Shown here in pieces: positions 21,758 to 31,024 of a DNA stretch of 34,988 nucleotides; the stretch's first letter is position 1, and every line of letters begins with the position of its first letter. The DNA is from Bacteroidales bacterium. GTDB lineage: Bacteria; Bacteroidota; Bacteroidia; Bacteroidales; UBA932. The notes under the pieces were generated by a model that was not told the DNA's origin, searched no databases, and saw only the letters and a program-made list of their open reading frames with translations. Made by a program: the position numbers and the translations under genes. The stretch lies in NCBI GenBank assembly GCA_017509685.1, contig JAFWPA010000081.1, forward strand, positions 1 through 34,988, in the 5' to 3' direction.

Positions 21758-22780
21758 ATGAAAATCAGAAGCAAAGCCCCTCTGCGGCTGGGACTGGCCG
21801 GCGGCGGCACCGATGTGTCGCCCTACAGCGATATGTTTGGCGGCAATGTACTCAACGCCACCATCAACCTGGCTGCGTATTGTACTATCGAGCCGCTTGA
21901 AATCCCTTTCCTGCGTGTGAATTCCCTGGACGCCGGGGTTTCCTGCGAAGTTCCGCTGGGTAGCGGTACCGTGAGTTCCGGCGCCCGGCTTATAGACGGC
22001 GTATACAACCGCATCATCAGGGATTACGGCCCTGTACCGTCACCGGGCTTTGCTATCACCACCTACAACGATGCCCCTGCCGGCAGCGGTCTGGGCACTT
22101 CTTCCACCATGGTGGTGTGCATCCTCAAGTGCTTTGCCGAATGGATGGGACTGCCGCTGGGCGACTACGAACTGGCGCGGCTCTCTTATGAAATCGAGCG
22201 CAAGGACCTGGCCCTGGCCGGCGGCAAGCAGGACCAGTATGCCGCCGCTTTCGGCGGATTCAACTTTATGGAATTCCTGCCCAGCGATCTGGTCATTGTG
22301 AATCCTCTCAATGTAAAGGACTGGATTATCCAGGAGCTGGAAGCCTCTCTGCTACTGTATTTTACCGGTCGCAGCAGGGAAGGGGCGCATATCATTGAAA
22401 AGCAGCAGCAGGCCGCCCGTTCCGGCAATGCCGTGGCTGTGGAAGCCATGCACCGCATCAAGCAAAGCGCCGTGGATATGAAACTGGCCCTTCTGCAAGG
22501 CGACATGCAGGCCTTCGCCGCCATCATGGGCGAAGCCTGGGAAGACAAGAAGAAGATGGCTGATACCATCACCAACCCCATGATCCAGGAAGCCTTCGAC
22601 GTGGCCATGGGCGCCGGTGCCATCTCCGGCAAGGTGTCCGGTGCCGGCGGCGGCGGGTTCATCATGCTCATGGTCCCGCCGGAGAAAAAGTATCTGATTA
22701 CGCAGGCCCTGTCTGCACTCCCCGGCAAGTTGGTTCCCTTCCAGTTCACCGAAAAAGGCGCCATCGCATGGAGGTTATAG
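21758..22780 (+). CDS. hddA: D-glycero-alpha-D-manno-heptose 7-phosphate kinase
   Basis: A 340-residue GHMP-family kinase that phosphorylates heptose 7-phosphate at C1 on the route to GDP-D-glycero-alpha-D-manno-heptose. The N-terminal RSKAPLRLGLAGGGTDVSPY, the ATP-binding motif DAPAGSGLGTSSTMVV and the C-terminal KVSGAGGGGFIMLMVP are typical of HddA-like sugar kinases; the length is normal. The next gene overlaps by 13 bases and supplies the following two steps, which strengthens the assignment over fucose- or galactokinase-type relatives. Product use would be a surface polysaccharide or glycan. The first pathway enzyme, the isomerase GmhA, is not in the window. Confidence 0.9.
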   Translation: MKIRSKAPLRLGLAGGGTDVSPYSDMFGGNVLNATINLAAYCTIEPLEIPFLRVNSLDAGVSCEVPLGSGTVSSGARLIDGVYNRIIRDYGPVPSPGFAITTYNDAPAGSGLGTSSTMVVCILKCFAEWMGLPLGDYELARLSYEIERKDLALAGGKQDQYAAAFGGFNFMEFLPSDLVIVNPLNVKDWIIQELEASLLLYFTGRSREGAHIIEKQQQAARSGNAVAVEAMHRIKQSAVDMKLALLQGDMQAFAAIMGEAWEDKKKMADTITNPMIQEAFDVAMGAGAISGKVSGAGGGGFIMLMVPPEKKYLITQALSALPGKLVPFQFTEKGAIAWRL

Positions 22781-24027
22781 TTCTGGCCGGTGGCCTGGGA
22801 ACACGCCTCCGCTCTGTAGTACACGAAATCCCCAAGTGTCTGGCACCCGTGGCCGGACGCCCTTTCCTGGGGTATCTGCTGGACTGGCTGGCCGCGCAAG
22901 GCGCTGATCACGTGGTATTTTCCGTAGGCTACCTGAAGGAACAGGTAATATCTTATCTTCAAGACAACCCCTGGCCTTTTGCCTATGATTTTGCCGTGGA
23001 AGATACGCCCCTGGGCACCGGCGGCGGCATCCGCCTGGCCCTCAGTCTTTGCCGGGAAAACCACGTCTTCGTAGTCAACGGCGACACTTTCTATCCGGTA
23101 GAGTTAACGGCCATGCCGTTCGACCACCCCATCACCCTTGCCCTCAAGCCCATGAAAGACTTTGACCGGTATGGGACTGTTATAATACAACCGGCATCTG
23201 CTCTTCCAGCGGCATCGGAAAATTATTTTTCGCAAGGCTTTGCGAAAAACCAATTTCCCGAAGCCATCGCCAACCTTACGCACGCAGATGCCGTACAGGT
23301 CGTCGGTTTCCAGGAGAAGAAGCACTGCGAGGAGGGGTTGATCAATGGCGGAGTATATGCCATTGATCGTAGCGGACTGGATTTGGGCAGCCTGCCGGAG
23401 AAGTTCTCGTTTGAGAAAGAGGTGCTGGAGCCGGGGGCGGCTATCCGGGAGATTGGCGGATGGGTGAGCAATGCGTATTTCATTGATATAGGGATTCCGG
23501 AGGATTACGGGAAGGCGCAGTGGGCCCTTCCGGCGTGGAAGGCGGTGAAGGAGGCTTCGGAGGCTGTGCTGAAGGCATCGGCCCAAACCCTTTTCCTGGA
23601 CCGGGACGGGGTGCTGAACCGGCACATCTGCCCGGGGTACGTAACGCGCTGGAGCGAGTGGGAGTGGTTGCCGGGCGTGCTGGAAGAACTGCCGCGGTGG
23701 GCGGCGATATTCCCGCGAATCGTGCTGGTTTCCAATCAGCGCGGGGTGGGGAAGGGCGTAATGACCGACGAAGACCTCTCCCGCGTACACGCGCAGATGA
23801 TGGCCGATATTCTGGAGGCCGGCGGGCGGATAGACCTTGCGCTTTACTGCACGTCGGTTTCCGACGAAGATCCGCGCCGAAAACCCAATACAGGCATGTT
23901 CCGGGAGGCGCAGGCTCTTTTCCCTGAGATTGACGCAAAAAGCAGTGTGATGCTGGGTGACACCCAGACCGACGCTGCCTTTGCCGAAAACTGCGGAATG
24001 CAGTTTATTCTACTGAACTTTTCATAA
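22768..24027 (+). CDS. hddC-gmhB: Fused heptose 1-phosphate guanylyltransferase and heptose bisphosphate phosphatase
   Basis: A 419-residue fusion. Residues about 1-250 are a nucleotidyltransferase of the HddC kind: VIVLAGGLGTRLRSVVHEIP with KCLAPVAGRPFL, TPLGTGGGIRLAL and VNGDTFY, ending in YFIDIGIPEDYGKAQ. Residues about 270-419 are a HAD phosphatase of the GmhB kind: LFLDRDGVLNRH, VSNQRGVGKG, CTSVSDEDPRRKPNTGMF and MLGDTQTD. In GmhB the CxxC/CxH zinc loop is usual; here it is partly lost (CTSVSDEDP). The enzyme would remove the C7 phosphate and add GMP. Between YGTVII and QVVGFQEK the protein carries about 31 extra residues (about 142-175) that coincide with the palindromic element at 23193-23292. 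The 3' end overlaps the convergent flavoprotein gene by 23 bases. Confidence 0.9.
   Translation: MEVIVLAGGLGTRLRSVVHEIPKCLAPVAGRPFLGYLLDWLAAQGADHVVFSVGYLKEQVISYLQDNPWPFAYDFAVEDTPLGTGGGIRLALSLCRENHVFVVNGDTFYPVELTAMPFDHPITLALKPMKDFDRYGTVIIQPASALPAASENYFSQGFAKNQFPEAIANLTHADAVQVVGFQEKKHCEEGLINGGVYAIDRSGLDLGSLPEKFSFEKEVLEPGAAIREIGGWVSNAYFIDIGIPEDYGKAQWALPAWKAVKEASEAVLKASAQTLFLDRDGVLNRHICPGYVTRWSEWEWLPGVLEELPRWAAIFPRIVLVSNQRGVGKGVMTDEDLSRVHAQMMADILEAGGRIDLALYCTSVSDEDPRRKPNTGMFREAQALFPEIDAKSSVMLGDTQTDAAFAENCGMQFILLNFS
23193..23292 (+). repeat. Protein-coding palindromic element, copy 1 (in hddC)
   Basis: A 100-base imperfect palindrome inside hddC. The ends are perfect 9-base inverted repeats, GGCATCTGC (23193-23201) and GCAGATGCC (23284-23292). 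The 55-base core (23211-23265) is a hairpin with TTTTTCGCAA (23226-23235 region) pairing with TTGCGAAAAA across a four-base loop, and outer GGC-TCGG-AAATT pairing with its complement. It is read as ENYFSQGFAKNQFPEAIA. The core is matched by 24794-24848 in the next gene (opposite genomic strand), in the same coding orientation and frame. Confidence 0.85.
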
Positions 24028-25264
24028 TGGACGTGGCACACACGTAGCCCGTACTCCAGGCCGCCTGCAGGTTAAATCCGCCTGTAATGGCGTCGATATC
24101 CAGCACTTCACCCGCAAAGTACAAGCCCGGGTACTGCCTGGCTTCCAGCGTATTCAGCTGGATGTTGGAAAGCGCTACGCCGCCGGCTGTTACAAACTCC
24201 TCCCGGAAACGGCTCTTGCCCGTAAGGGGATAACTGTCTCCGGTAAGGACTGCGGTAAGGCGGTTCAGGCCCTTGCTGCCCAGTTCGGCCCAGCGGAGGT
24301 CTTCTCGCAGCCCTGCTTTGGCCAGCAAGTGATTCCAAAGGCGGCTCGGGAGCAAATGCGTGCTGGAAACCAGCTTCTGCGGGTTCCTGGCCGCCGTTTC
24401 CTGCAAGGCGTCACGCGCGCTTTCCTCACTGCTGTCCAGCCAGTTCACAAGGACCGTTCCCGTATACCCCGTTTCAGCCAGATGCCGCGCTGCATAAGAC
24501 GACAATTTAAGCGTAGCCGGCCCGCTGAGCCCCCAGTCCGTGATGAGTAGCGGCCCCTGCGCCTTAAACGCCGTCCCCGCCAGGCTCACCGACGCCTCCA
24601 CCACCAGCCCCATCAACGCCTTCAGCCCCGCATCATTAATATTAAATGTAAACAATGAAGGAACAGGCGGCACCAACTCCAACCCCAAATCCTCCAAAAA
24701 CGGCAACCCCTTCGGCGCCCCGCCCGTAGTTACTACCACATAGTCGAACTCCTCATCATTAACATAGAAAGAATTGCGCGTCGGCATCGCGATGGCCGAA
24801 GGAATTTGGTTTTTCGCAAAGCGTTGCGAAAAATAAATTCCGTCGGCCGCCGGCCCAATGGAAATGACCGGTGTTTTCAGTCGTACATCGGCCCCTTTCA
24901 TGGCGCGTTGTAGGGCGCGGACTACGTCCATGGCGTCTTGGGACTGGGGAAACCAGCAGTGGTCTTCCTGCAGGACGCAGGGGACGCCGTGGGCGGTGAA
25001 CCAGGCAATGGTGTCTTCCTGGGAGAAGGCCTTGAGGGCGCGTTTCATCACGCGTTCGCCGCGGGGATAGGCTTGTGCCAGGGAACGGATGCCCTGGAAG
25101 TCGTTGGTGAGATTGCAGCGTCCGCCGCCGGTGATGGCCAGTTTGGCCATGGGCCGGTTGCCTCCTTCAAAGACCGTTACGGCCAGTTCCGGCGCGTGTT
25201 CCCGCAGCAACGCGGCGCAAAAGCACCCCGCAGCACCGGCACCTATGATGGCTACGCGTTTCAT
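24005..25264 (-). CDS. HI0933/YhiN-family FAD-dependent oxidoreductase
   Basis: A 419-residue flavoprotein of the HI0933-like (YhiN, aminoacetone-oxidase-like) family, near normal length. The dinucleotide motif VAIIGAGAAGCFCAALL opens the protein at the ATG of 25264; longer upstream frames lack homology. LAITGGGRCNLTND is the family signature, VVVTTGGAPKGLPFLEDLGL is the second FAD contact, and FAGEVLDIDAITGGFNLQAA ends the fold. The physiological substrate is not known. Residues about 139-157 are encoded by the palindromic element at 24794-24848, inserted between a beta strand and the second FAD motif. Its start overlaps the upstream metallopeptidase stop by 4 bases, forming an operon with two genes upstream. 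Confidence 0.92.
   Translation of the reverse strand: MKRVAIIGAGAAGCFCAALLREHAPELAVTVFEGGNRPMAKLAITGGGRCNLTNDFQGIRSLAQAYPRGERVMKRALKAFSQEDTIAWFTAHGVPCVLQEDHCWFPQSQDAMDVVRALQRAMKGADVRLKTPVISIGPAADGIYFSQRFAKNQIPSAIAMPTRNSFYVNDEEFDYVVVTTGGAPKGLPFLEDLGLELVPPVPSLFTFNINDAGLKALMGLVVEASVSLAGTAFKAQGPLLITDWGLSGPATLKLSSYAARHLAETGYTGTVLVNWLDSSEESARDALQETAARNPQKLVSSTHLLPSRLWNHLLAKAGLREDLRWAELGSKGLNRLTAVLTGDSYPLTGKSRFREEFVTAGGVALSNIQLNTLEARQYPGLYFAGEVLDIDAITGGFNLQAAWSTGYVCATSIMKSSVE
24794..24848 (-). repeat. Protein-coding palindromic element, copy 2 (in HI0933 gene)
   Basis: A 55-base hairpin whose arms (24794-24819 and 24824-24848) match with one mismatch and one extra base around the loop AGCG. Read on the minus strand it encodes ADGIYFSQRFAKNQIPSAIA. 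The central 32 bases differ from copy 1 at 23211-23265 by a single base, and identity continues for several bases past the core (GCCATCGC). Both copies are exactly 55 bases long. Confidence 0.85.
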
Positions 25265-28810: not shown

Positions 28811-30049
28811 ATGAACAAAGAACAGATACTCATCCGCATTTCCGGTGAGGACCGTATAGGCCTCTCGGCAGCCATTATGGCCATCCTGGCCAAGTACGAC
28901 GCCCAAATCCTGGACCTGGGCCAGGCCGTGATCCACAATACCCTTTCCATGGGTATCCTCATCCGGATAGACGAGGAACATTCCGGCCAGGTGATGAAGG
29001 ACCTTCTCTTCAAGACCACGGAGCTGGGAAGCTTGAGCATCGGCTTTGCGCCCGTGCCCGACGACGAATACGAGGCCTGGGCCGGCCGGCAGGGGAGGAA
29101 CCGCTACATCCTCACCATCATCGGCCGCAGCCTGAGCGCCGCGCAAATCCAGGCCGCCACGGACGTCATCAGCCGTCACGGGCTCAATATCGACGCCATC
29201 AAGCGCCTCACGGGCCGCATGAGCATCATGCATCCGGAGCGCAACGTGCGCGCCTGCGTGGAATTTTCCCTGCGGGGCTTCCTGTCGGCCGATGACAAAA
29301 AGGCCATGCAGGAAGACCTGATGCAGATGGGCACCGAGGCCGGCATCGACTTCTCCTTCCAGAAGGACGATATGTACCGCCGTATGCGCCGCCTCATTTG
29401 CTTCGATATGGACTCTACGCTCATTCAGGCCGAGTGCATCGACGAGCTTGCCCGCCGCCACGGCGTGTACGATCAGGTGGCCGCCATCACGGAGAGCGCC
29501 ATGCGCGGAGAGATCGATTTCAAGGAAAGTTTTACCAAAAGAGTTGCTTTACTTAAGGGCCTAGATGTGTCTGTGATGCAGGATATTGCAGAGCATCTTC
29601 CTATTACGGAGGGAACGGACCGCCTGATGTCTGTCCTCAAGACCTGCGGCTACAAGATTGCTATCCTCAGCGGTGGTTTCACCTTCTTCGGCGAGTATCT
29701 GCGTAAGCGCTACGGCATCGATTACGTCTATGCCAACGAACTGGAAGTGGACGAAGACGGCAAGCTCACAGGCCGCTATGTGGGCGAGATTGTGGACGGC
29801 CGCCGCAAGGCCGATCTGCTCAAACTCATCGCCCAGACGGAGCACGTGAACCTGGCGCAGACCATCGCCGTGGGAGACGGTGCCAACGACCTCCCCATGA
29901 TTGGAGAAGCTGGCCTGGGTATCGCTTTCCACGCCAAACCGCGCGTGAAGCAGAGCGCCCGCCAAAGTATCAGCACCATTGGCCTGGACGGCGTGCTGTA
30001 CTTTATCGGCTTCAAAGACAGTCAGTTAGGAGAGCAGGGAAAGCTATAA
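28811..30049 (+). CDS. serB: Phosphoserine phosphatase with N-terminal ACT domains
   Basis: A 412-residue SerB that releases serine from phosphoserine, the last step of serine synthesis. Residues about 1-185 hold two ACT-like regulatory domains (ISGEDRIGLSAAIMAILAKY, then ILTIIGRSLSAAQIQAATDV). The HAD domain (about 190-405) has the nucleophile Asp199 and Asp201 in CFDMDSTLIQAECIDELAR, LSGGFTFF, and the metal site VGDGANDLPMIGEAGLGIAF. The long ACT-containing form is usual in Bacteroidota. A short patch near 29520-29610 is AT-richer than the rest of the gene. Its 3' end overlaps the convergent mutY stop by 6 bases. Confidence 0.96.
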   Translation: MNKEQILIRISGEDRIGLSAAIMAILAKYDAQILDLGQAVIHNTLSMGILIRIDEEHSGQVMKDLLFKTTELGSLSIGFAPVPDDEYEAWAGRQGRNRYILTIIGRSLSAAQIQAATDVISRHGLNIDAIKRLTGRMSIMHPERNVRACVEFSLRGFLSADDKKAMQEDLMQMGTEAGIDFSFQKDDMYRRMRRLICFDMDSTLIQAECIDELARRHGVYDQVAAITESAMRGEIDFKESFTKRVALLKGLDVSVMQDIAEHLPITEGTDRLMSVLKTCGYKIAILSGGFTFFGEYLRKRYGIDYVYANELEVDEDGKLTGRYVGEIVDGRRKADLLKLIAQTEHVNLAQTIAVGDGANDLPMIGEAGLGIAFHAKPRVKQSARQSISTIGLDGVLYFIGFKDSQLGEQGKL

Positions 30050-31024
30050 CGCTTCCAGCAGCAACACGAACAGACGGGGCTTGGCATACTGGTCAAGCTC
30101 CGTTTCTTTTACCCAGAAATAGCCTTCGGGAAGCTCCGGCTTTTCTGCTGGTTCCCATAGGTAGAAGTCGGCAATGAGGAGGCGGTGGGTGAGCTGGTGT
30201 TTTACGCCGGATTTGATCAGATGCCCGGTCAGGCCGGGCATGACGGTATCCACCAGGGGCTCGTAAAGCCCTTGCCAGATGTCTCCGGGACCGCGGCGGC
30301 GGATGGCCGTCTGGCCCTGGAAACGGACGTAGATGTAGTTGAAACGGCGTTCCTGCACGGCCGTGGCGGGTTTTTTCACGGGAAGGAGATCCACGCGGCC
30401 GGTACGGAAGGCGTTGCAGGTAGGCTGCAGAGGGCAACTGAGACAGTCGGGGCGCTGCGGGGTGCATTGCAGCGCCCCGAAATCCATCATCCCCTGATTG
30501 AAGGCGCCGGCCCGGTCTTCCGGCAGCAGGCGTTGGGCCAGGGCGGTGAATTCTTTTTTGGCTTCGGCAGTTCCCACGGGCGTGGACAGGCCGAAGTGCC
30601 GGGCCAGTACGCGATATACGTTGCCGTCTACCACGGCGGCGGGCAGGTCAAAGCAGATGGAGCCGATAGCCGCTGCGGTATAGTCTCCCACGCCTTTTAG
30701 GCTGCGGATGCCCTCTAGAGTGTCCGGGAAAGCCCCCATCGTCATTATTTGTTTTGCGGCGGCGTGCAGGTTCCGGGCGCGGGAATAATAGCCCAGGCCT
30801 TCCCATAGGCGCAGGACTTCGTCTTCGGAAGCATCGGCCAAATCCTGTACGGTGGGGAAGCGCTGCATGAATCTTTCCCAATAGGCTGTGCCCTGTGCGA
30901 TGCGCGTCTGCTGCAGGATGATTTCGCTGAGCCAGACGGCATACGGGTTCCGCGTACGGCGCCAGGGAAGGTCCCGGCCGTATTCCGCGTACCACGCGAG
31001 GATGGTCTGGCTGAAGGGGTCCAT
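30044..31024 (-). CDS. mutY: A/G-specific adenine DNA glycosylase
   Basis: A 326-residue MutY that removes adenine mispaired with 8-oxoguanine. Residues 1-215: catalytic Glu34 in LSEIILQQTRI, the helix-hairpin-helix LKGVGDYTAAAIG, Asp133 in VVDGNVYRVLARHFG, and the iron-sulphur cysteines spaced C-x6-C-x2-C-x5-C in CTPQRPDCLSCPLQPTC. A NUDIX-like C-terminal domain (about 230-326) begins IWQGLYEPLV and ends with HQLTHRLLIADFYLWE. Between them residues 261-269 (VMPGLTGHL) are encoded by a palindromic repeat, replacing the variable loop seen in relatives. It is the last gene of the kdsC-maf-mutY operon, 3 bases after maf. Confidence 0.95.
   Translation of the reverse strand: MDPFSQTILAWYAEYGRDLPWRRTRNPYAVWLSEIILQQTRIAQGTAYWERFMQRFPTVQDLADASEDEVLRLWEGLGYYSRARNLHAAAKQIMTMGAFPDTLEGIRSLKGVGDYTAAAIGSICFDLPAAVVDGNVYRVLARHFGLSTPVGTAEAKKEFTALAQRLLPEDRAGAFNQGMMDFGALQCTPQRPDCLSCPLQPTCNAFRTGRVDLLPVKKPATAVQERRFNYIYVRFQGQTAIRRRGPGDIWQGLYEPLVDTVMPGLTGHLIKSGVKHQLTHRLLIADFYLWEPAEKPELPEGYFWVKETELDQYAKPRLFVLLLEAL
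30218..30244 (-). repeat. REP-like coding palindrome, copy 1 (in mutY)
   Basis: A 27-base unit with perfect 8-base arms ATGCCCGG and CCGGGCAT around CCTGA. Read on the minus strand it encodes VMPGLTGHL. It matches 34340-34366 at 23-24 of 27 positions in the same coding frame. Confidence 0.75.

Follow-up and report, generated by a model that had tools for sequence, protein, structure and literature searches.

Two kinds of short palindromic repeat described from bacteria come closest to the element reported here. Rickettsia and Wolbachia palindromic elements (RPEs and WPEs), as passages of one report present them, are palindromic repeats within open reading frames (ORFs) that keep the frame, encode solvent-exposed segments and occur also in extended forms, with insertion hot spots not excluded (PMC3767692). 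The same passages state for Rickettsia japonica that the rickettsial orthologues of a gene with an insert all carry one at that locus (PMC3767692). The second kind is the repetitive extragenic palindrome (REP) in its intragenic form: excerpts from Di Nocera et al. 2013 describe, for several species, GTAG- and CGTC-tagged REPs that lie wholly within the ORFs of known proteins, as single units or dimers, with tagged stems of 5-13 bp (GTAG) or 8-9 bp (CGTC) and with clusters encoding up to 82 amino acids, and suggest that they are neutral in linkers and loops (PMC3733652). On the enzyme side, portions of a further source describe TnpAREP subclass 2.6 as Y1 HUH proteins with the motif NH[LIV]H, mostly from Bacteroidetes, whose atypical flanking secondary structures also occur at other sites of the genome (PMC6006769), and sections of another state that the conserved mismatch bulge of the E. 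coli REP is required for TnpAREP activity (PMC8266576). The subject of this work is a palindromic element found twice in a 34,988-nt stretch of Bacteroidales DNA (the window, which is contig C86 of a 2.31-Mb genome, 79% complete and in 91 contigs), once in an hddC-like gene and once in an HI0933-family gene. A search of the open-access literature, with subscription papers outside its scope, found no earlier account of the element, nor of in-frame REPs from Bacteroidales. We propose that both copies probably belong to a REP-type mobile element, short and non-autonomous.

The two host genes are convergent in the window, and they and the copies are arranged as follows:

22768..24027, plus strand: ORF for an hddC-like nucleotidyltransferase with a fused HAD phosphatase, host of copy 1
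23192..23293, plus strand: probable full extent of copy 1, 102 nt, the hairpin being framed by an inverted repeat of this copy, CGGCATCTGC/GCAGATGCCG
23209..23271, plus strand: hairpin core of copy 1, read as SENYFSQGFAKNQFPEAIA (covariance model R1, 83.3 bits)
24005..25264, minus strand: ORF for an HI0933-family NAD(P)/FAD flavoprotein, host of copy 2
24788..24850, minus strand: hairpin core of copy 2, read as DGIYFSQRFAKNQIPSAIA (covariance model R1, 88.0 bits)

An earlier note on this DNA had described a hairpin common to the two genes, and both copies were found where it placed them, in the same element orientation and frame, with the peptides NYFSQGFAKNQ and IYFSQRFAKNQ. The near-identical core also stands, the central 31 bases (TTATTTTTCGCAAnGCTTTGCGAAAAACCAA) differing at one position between the copies. 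The hairpin extent given for hddC was right in place and too narrow: a 10-bp outer stem (CGGCATCTGC at 23192-23201, GCAGATGCCG at 23284-23293) brackets the hairpin, and the unit of copy 1 is therefore 102 nt, its core consisting of a 24-bp stem, the A/CC bulge and a tetraloop. The pattern TTTTTCGCAANNNNTTGCGAAAAA, with up to three mismatches, matches the window at two sites, both of them the known copies, and at none in 100 shuffled windows. In RNA folding of the element-sense strand, each copy beats all of 200 shuffles (z of -3.8 and -4.8). The hddC-like protein gives Pfam matches to NTP_transf_3, NTP_transferase, Hydrolase_like and PNK3P, and its closest solved chain, 5xhw, has eight residues opposite 40 unaligned residues of the window protein, in agreement with the loop position proposed before. 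Structure predictions from three and five sequences had a mean predicted local distance difference test score (pLDDT) of 46 and 43, too low in confidence for a judgement on exposure, and were not used. The HI0933 protein matches Pfam HI0933_like in two stretches and 2gqf in structure; its gene start was placed at 25264, and a longer ORF reaches 25372.

The element forms an imperfect hairpin, about 63 nt long, whose stem covaries and retains an A/CC bulge. By pattern, 200 unique copies were collected from 164 loci; their T run, A, CC and A run are constant because the collecting pattern fixes them. Covariance model R1 allows change but was built on copies of the pattern type; among 80 of its matches listed, every one has CC and a single one (L059, by inspection) lacks the A. 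Pairing was counted on a hand-written structure (24-bp stem, A opposite CC inside the stem, tetraloop NGCT) in an alignment of nine copies from G000, G005 and G028: 97.2% of the stem cells are paired against a shuffled mean of 88.4, and nine pairs are changed on both sides against a shuffled mean of 3.3, with none of 500 shuffles as high in either measure. Among 119 distinct copies, mid-stem position 11 is paired in 94%, by GC, CG, TA and AT, compared with 38% for shuffled partners, and mid-stem position 8 in 88% compared with 45%. Part of the copies are also enclosed by other repeats and by an inverted repeat specific to the copy: an outer stem of at least 8 perfect base pairs is present in 54 of 197 copies versus 3.1% with swapped partners, these 54 represent 42 different outer sequences, and several of the outer arms resemble fragments of other repeats from the genus.

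The approximately 200 copies come nearly all from a single gut Bacteroidales group. The window's own genome has three by pattern (up to two mismatches), in hddC, the HI0933 gene and atpB, all within genes, the atpB copy lying behind the signal peptide in the same frame as the other two. Of 200 genomes sampled from the genus, 26, the window's own among them, are positive for the element by covariance model R1. The core thus recurs both elsewhere in the genome and in other species, an outcome in favour of the earlier note, which had set this as a test. In an order-wide sample searched with the same model, two of 393 genomes were positive, both from the same genus. An exact-pattern scan of 84,980 species gave at least 120 stretches with a match; among 80 matches listed, 78 are labelled Bacteroidales or Bacteroidia, and many are ruminant-derived by their record titles. 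One of the 200 copies, under a Flavobacteriaceae label (L174), looks like a chance match. Under a Clostridia label (L217) the pattern lies near a contig end; that contig is probably mis-binned, as its predicted proteins resemble those of Bacteroidales. Two pattern matches with two mismatches each were set aside, one in G002, a different palindrome ahead of an ORF, and one in G052. Carriage by phage was rejected, the exact pattern having no match in viral contigs, and integron attC-like recombination was considered and dropped on motifs only.

Within genes the element is read mostly as one hydrophilic peptide. An in-frame call was made by codon usage, with coding sequence on both sides of the copy; 39 of the 200 copies read through genes in this way, and the rest, most of the collection, were assumed to be intergenic. 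The 39 are an undercount because repeat-derived flanks score poorly, and the known in-gene cases L001, L003, L011, L019 and L233 lie outside it. A stricter codon-usage cut gave 12 of 185 copies, two with an internal stop. By frame, the forward copies fall as 25 in +1, one in +0 and none in +2, the reverse copies as six in -1, five in -0 and two in -2. If the frames were equally likely, the chance of finding 25 of 26 forward copies in a single frame would be 2e-11, and that of finding 14 of 15 after grouping by gene (our own grouping) 2e-6. Frames +1 and +2 are stop-free throughout the 200 copies, and frame +1 has the lowest mean hydropathy of the six frames (-1.05), that is, the most hydrophilic. 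This bias fits a filter acting after insertion, the remaining copies being those that the protein tolerates. Reverse frame -1 of the standard 31-nt core contains TAA, and in five frame -1 copies with this core (L016, L054, L205 and L245, with L005 by inspection) a paired flip removes the stop; the two frame -1 copies lacking the flip (L070, L173) have a 32-nt core instead. The same flip is found in four other copies. The proposal that this flip, the ATA/CCAT variant, is confined to reverse-read copies was refuted, since it is also present in forward-read L019, L233 and L042. The frames bear on the view that the segment is skipped by translational bypassing or removes itself, and so is not part of the protein. 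A stable hairpin inside a gene is typical of such elements, but the in-gene copies keep frame and avoid stops, and frame -1 copies with the standard core carry the stop-opening flip, all of which would be needless for a skipped segment; we regard this view as very improbable.

Presence and absence of the element alternate at the same gene loops. Orthologue surveys covered the 30 best-matching loci per search within the genus. Of the 29 other hddC orthologues, one carries the element (L083, G028), one (L085, G172) has at the same loop a different insert of similar length, PAGPAASGKGPEVCSAAASAIFFAEAEHTSGPKK, and 27 have a short or different loop. Two more carriers were found outside that survey, which makes four carrier genomes for hddC (G000, G028 and those of L162 and L239), L239 having two copies in tandem. 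The tips and boundaries of the hddC copies differ between genomes, which suggests repeated arrival or turnover at the same loops. None of the 29 other HI0933 orthologues has the element, and several have other repeat-like segments at the same place. Orthologues free of the segment thus exist for both genes, again in favour of the earlier note. At the mutY loop, forward copies occur in L011, L258, L144, L017 and L254 (two copies) and reverse copies in L016, L054 and L205; the mutY gene of the window has another palindromic repeat, in frame, where its congeners hold the element:

30044..31024, minus strand: mutY ORF; its EPLV...VKHQLTH loop is the element site in congeners by alignment
30219..30244, minus strand: a different palindromic repeat, GTCATGCCCGGCCTGACCGGGCATCT, lying in frame in the mutY loop with the peptide VMPGLTGHL

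A second insert site in hddC lies between LAP and RPFL, near the nucleotide-binding signature (L010:746-2299, L162:2-1108), and holds tandem repeats of other kinds, SRAPEGPFSCSNPSD... and RTPEGADSCP.... The other in-frame segments at these loops look like REPs, by our reading of recurring sequences and in part by motifs such as CHSERSEE. Host identities supported by Pfam are the ATP synthase a and gamma chains, MutY, a citrate lyase ligase/CitG fusion, UDP-glucose dehydrogenase, nucleotidyltransferase and RmlD types, indole-3-glycerol phosphate synthase, diaminopimelate (DAP) epimerase, methionine synthase, SpoU methylase, HAD hydrolase, an alanine-racemase-fold protein, a PrmC-type protein and a glycosyltransferase.

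That the segment is ancestral gene sequence, alike in the two genes by chance or convergence, can be given next to no credence: shuffled windows yield not even one match, only one of 29 other hddC and none of 29 other HI0933 orthologues has the element, and the same DNA recurs in unrelated genes of many species. It is also improbable that the hairpin is kept as a functional RNA structure, for example one that slows ribosomes or stabilises the message. The covarying stem is in favour of such a role, as is the codon identity of the atpB, mutY and hddC copies, in which 190 of 194 same-residue codons are identical versus 2930 of 5195 in the rest of the genes (the pairs are non-independent, and four mutY pairs with L011 were unscored). 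However, the element value is inflated because the pattern used to pick copies fixes much of the core, and recent arrival, gene conversion, interspecies exchange or selection on the hairpin could each explain the identity. Most of the orthologues surveyed for the same genes lack the element, the same loops hold other repeats, and a structured RNA of known family was rejected after an Rfam scan of eight loci gave nothing at E up to 1.

At atpB the history is less simple. Of 30 loci of the genus, one of which is truncated ahead of the site, that of the window's genome is the sole carrier of the element there; many of the same loci have other repeat-like segments at the site and some have none. 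The AtpB stretch after the signal peptide (loci L327-L356) is highly variable among congeners, either filled with repeats or nearly empty, and the N-terminal repeat-like peptides include VIPSEAEES, VILSESEES, GDTLSSASLRDPVRANAPERVSP and VMPGPDRVSDEIADQVGNDE. The atpB copies of L001, L152, L181, L189 and L257 share a CTTCGAC arm that occurs in no other of the 200 copies and are therefore related. Simple descent of the shared arm was rejected, as the element label needs at least three changes on a tree of 35 AtpB proteins (L181 left out). Descent with losses, exchange between species or repeated arrival could each account for this pattern.

A different account dispenses with a dedicated transposase: the hairpin would be a passenger of composite repeat arrays, spread by recombination, gene conversion or template switching, and the in-gene copies would have been carried along inside larger blocks. 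Composite inserts do occur. At the citC/citG locus, G149 and G208 are about 91% identical and differ by a 183-nt in-frame block, which in G149 consists of other repeats plus the element, and in-gene copies lie within inserts that include other repeats in L019, L233 and L044. The citC/citG fusion (L005, L019, L233) has several kinds of in-frame repeat in tandem, with the element in both orientations. Many G028 copies come after the TCATTCTGAGC repeat, and outer arms often match other repeats by our reading (GGCATCTGC, ATTCGCCGGTC, GGCGAATCC); the atpB copies, with a private arm yet scattered on the tree, and the position of most RAYT-like genes found (RAYT, REP-associated tyrosine transposase), which lie away from the element, are also what a passenger would give. 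Against this, lone hairpins free of other repeats are read in mutY of L017 and L144, the A/CC bulge is kept while the stem pairs, a feature that template switching would tend to erase, and RAYT-like genes recur close to the element. We consider the passenger account rather unlikely.

The REP-type mobile element is the best reading because RAYT-like genes stand near elements at seven loci, and at three of the loci examined elements lie on both sides of the gene (L043, L078, L238). When 589 ORFs within 2.5 kb of elements at 164 loci were clustered, the largest recurrent cluster apart from hosts and syntenic neighbours, as sorted by our own judgement, consisted of eight divergent RAYT-like proteins, one per locus; the next clusters had four loci. 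In raw counts, the RAYT-like ORFs lie 121-475 nt from the element at the seven loci. The N-H-x-H motif and the motif tyrosine (Y...N) are invariant in all eight aligned proteins, and seven of the eight match NCBIfam REP_Tyr_transpos. A divergent REP-associated tyrosine (HUH/Y1) transposase might thus recognise the folded single strand, bulge included, and then copy or move the element. Copies landing in genes would survive only where the loop is permissive, the frame free of stops and the length such that the reading frame is preserved; they would then be translated into a spacer peptide of no known advantage for the host protein. Some divergent RAYT-like genes of the genus have flanking repeats of their own, for example L308 with CACAACGTCCGAAAAACCCGGACG.

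Several observations weigh against this mobile-element reading. All NCBIfam scores of the RAYT-like proteins are under the curated 80-bit cut-off, and Pfam Y1_Tnp is passed by one of the eight (L182), whose element is 1.1 kb away. The 30 best PF01797 loci are all without an element; four of the 30 best A3-profile loci have one, and at least three of these four were used to build the profile. Among the matches listed, most RAYT-like genes lie away from the element, five are within 500 nt of one, and the five of the window's own genome share no contig with its elements. RAYT-like genes are present in 25 of the 26 carrier genomes, with up to 17 matches each; a Y1_Tnp match occurs in 24 of the 26, yet in 119 of 174 other genomes too. 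No conserved GTAG or CGTC tag was found at the hairpin foot in 197 copies: the 45 nt upstream contain GTAG in 15, CTAC in 13, CGTC in 30 and GACG in 58, the 55 nt downstream in 6, 14, 50 and 43, respectively, and the 12 nt at the upstream foot in 2, 9, 7 and 32. Covariation is uneven, mid-stem position 12 being paired in 66% of the 119 copies versus 60% for shuffled partners, and neither a target duplication nor fixed ends could be defined. The relatedness of the atpB copies, finally, makes them no clear case of independent insertion at that locus, though they are scattered on the gene tree.

The earlier reading of an RPE-like, in-frame palindromic element is supported, and we add that the element is best described as REP-like, from a genus rich in RAYT-like genes; its spread by transposition is what we infer from the arrangement. 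A wider and more tentative proposal is that a RAYT-moved palindrome has been shaped by life in genes, an RPE-like system that may have arisen separately in Bacteroidales and for which a transposase candidate exists. Under this proposal the core would be stop-free and most hydrophilic in one frame, the paired flip would open a closed frame with the stem kept, and the loops of hddC, mutY, citC, atpB and HI0933 would be fixed landing places for different repeat families. If true, protein loops turn over by repeat insertion across the genus. For the protein-coding palindromes of Rickettsia the mechanism of spread is, to our knowledge, open, and we know of no enzyme tied to them. Here candidate RAYT transposases occur together with an in-frame palindrome in a genus of more than 200 species, and the same loops are found empty, occupied once, occupied twice or with a replacement. 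This allows direct tests of the mechanism, of the frame filter and of what the segment costs the host protein. Loop insertions in proteins of such genomes should be viewed with caution, as they may be repeat debris and not functional domains.

Compared with known systems, the element resembles the Rickettsia and Wolbachia palindromic elements in sitting in frame in coding genes; unlike the RPEs it is patchy across orthologues, belongs to another phylum and has RAYT-like genes beside some copies, the comparison being one of description. It differs from the intragenic REPs in its 24-bp stem, its lack of a conserved tag and its kept A/CC bulge. For TnpAREP subclass 2.6, the table in the portions cited gives a figure of 179, taken here as a length, whereas the open frames in this genus are about 300-340 amino acids, a comparison again made by description. 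In the sections of the E. coli report cited, the REP/TnpAREP pair is likewise an imperfect palindrome with a kept bulge, next to a transposase gene as some copies here are next to a candidate one, and its REPs are 29-37 nt with GTAG (PMC8266576), unlike the present element, which has no GTAG and of which part of the copies lie in frame in genes. As to the features of a REP, the element is a dispersed imperfect palindrome and its neighbour has the HUH motif and the tyrosine; the GTAG/CGTC tag is absent. We set it apart as a variant because the tag is lacking and the link with the RAYT is incomplete. In-frame REPs and RPEs are known elsewhere; this element works like the RPEs and looks like the REP/RAYT systems.

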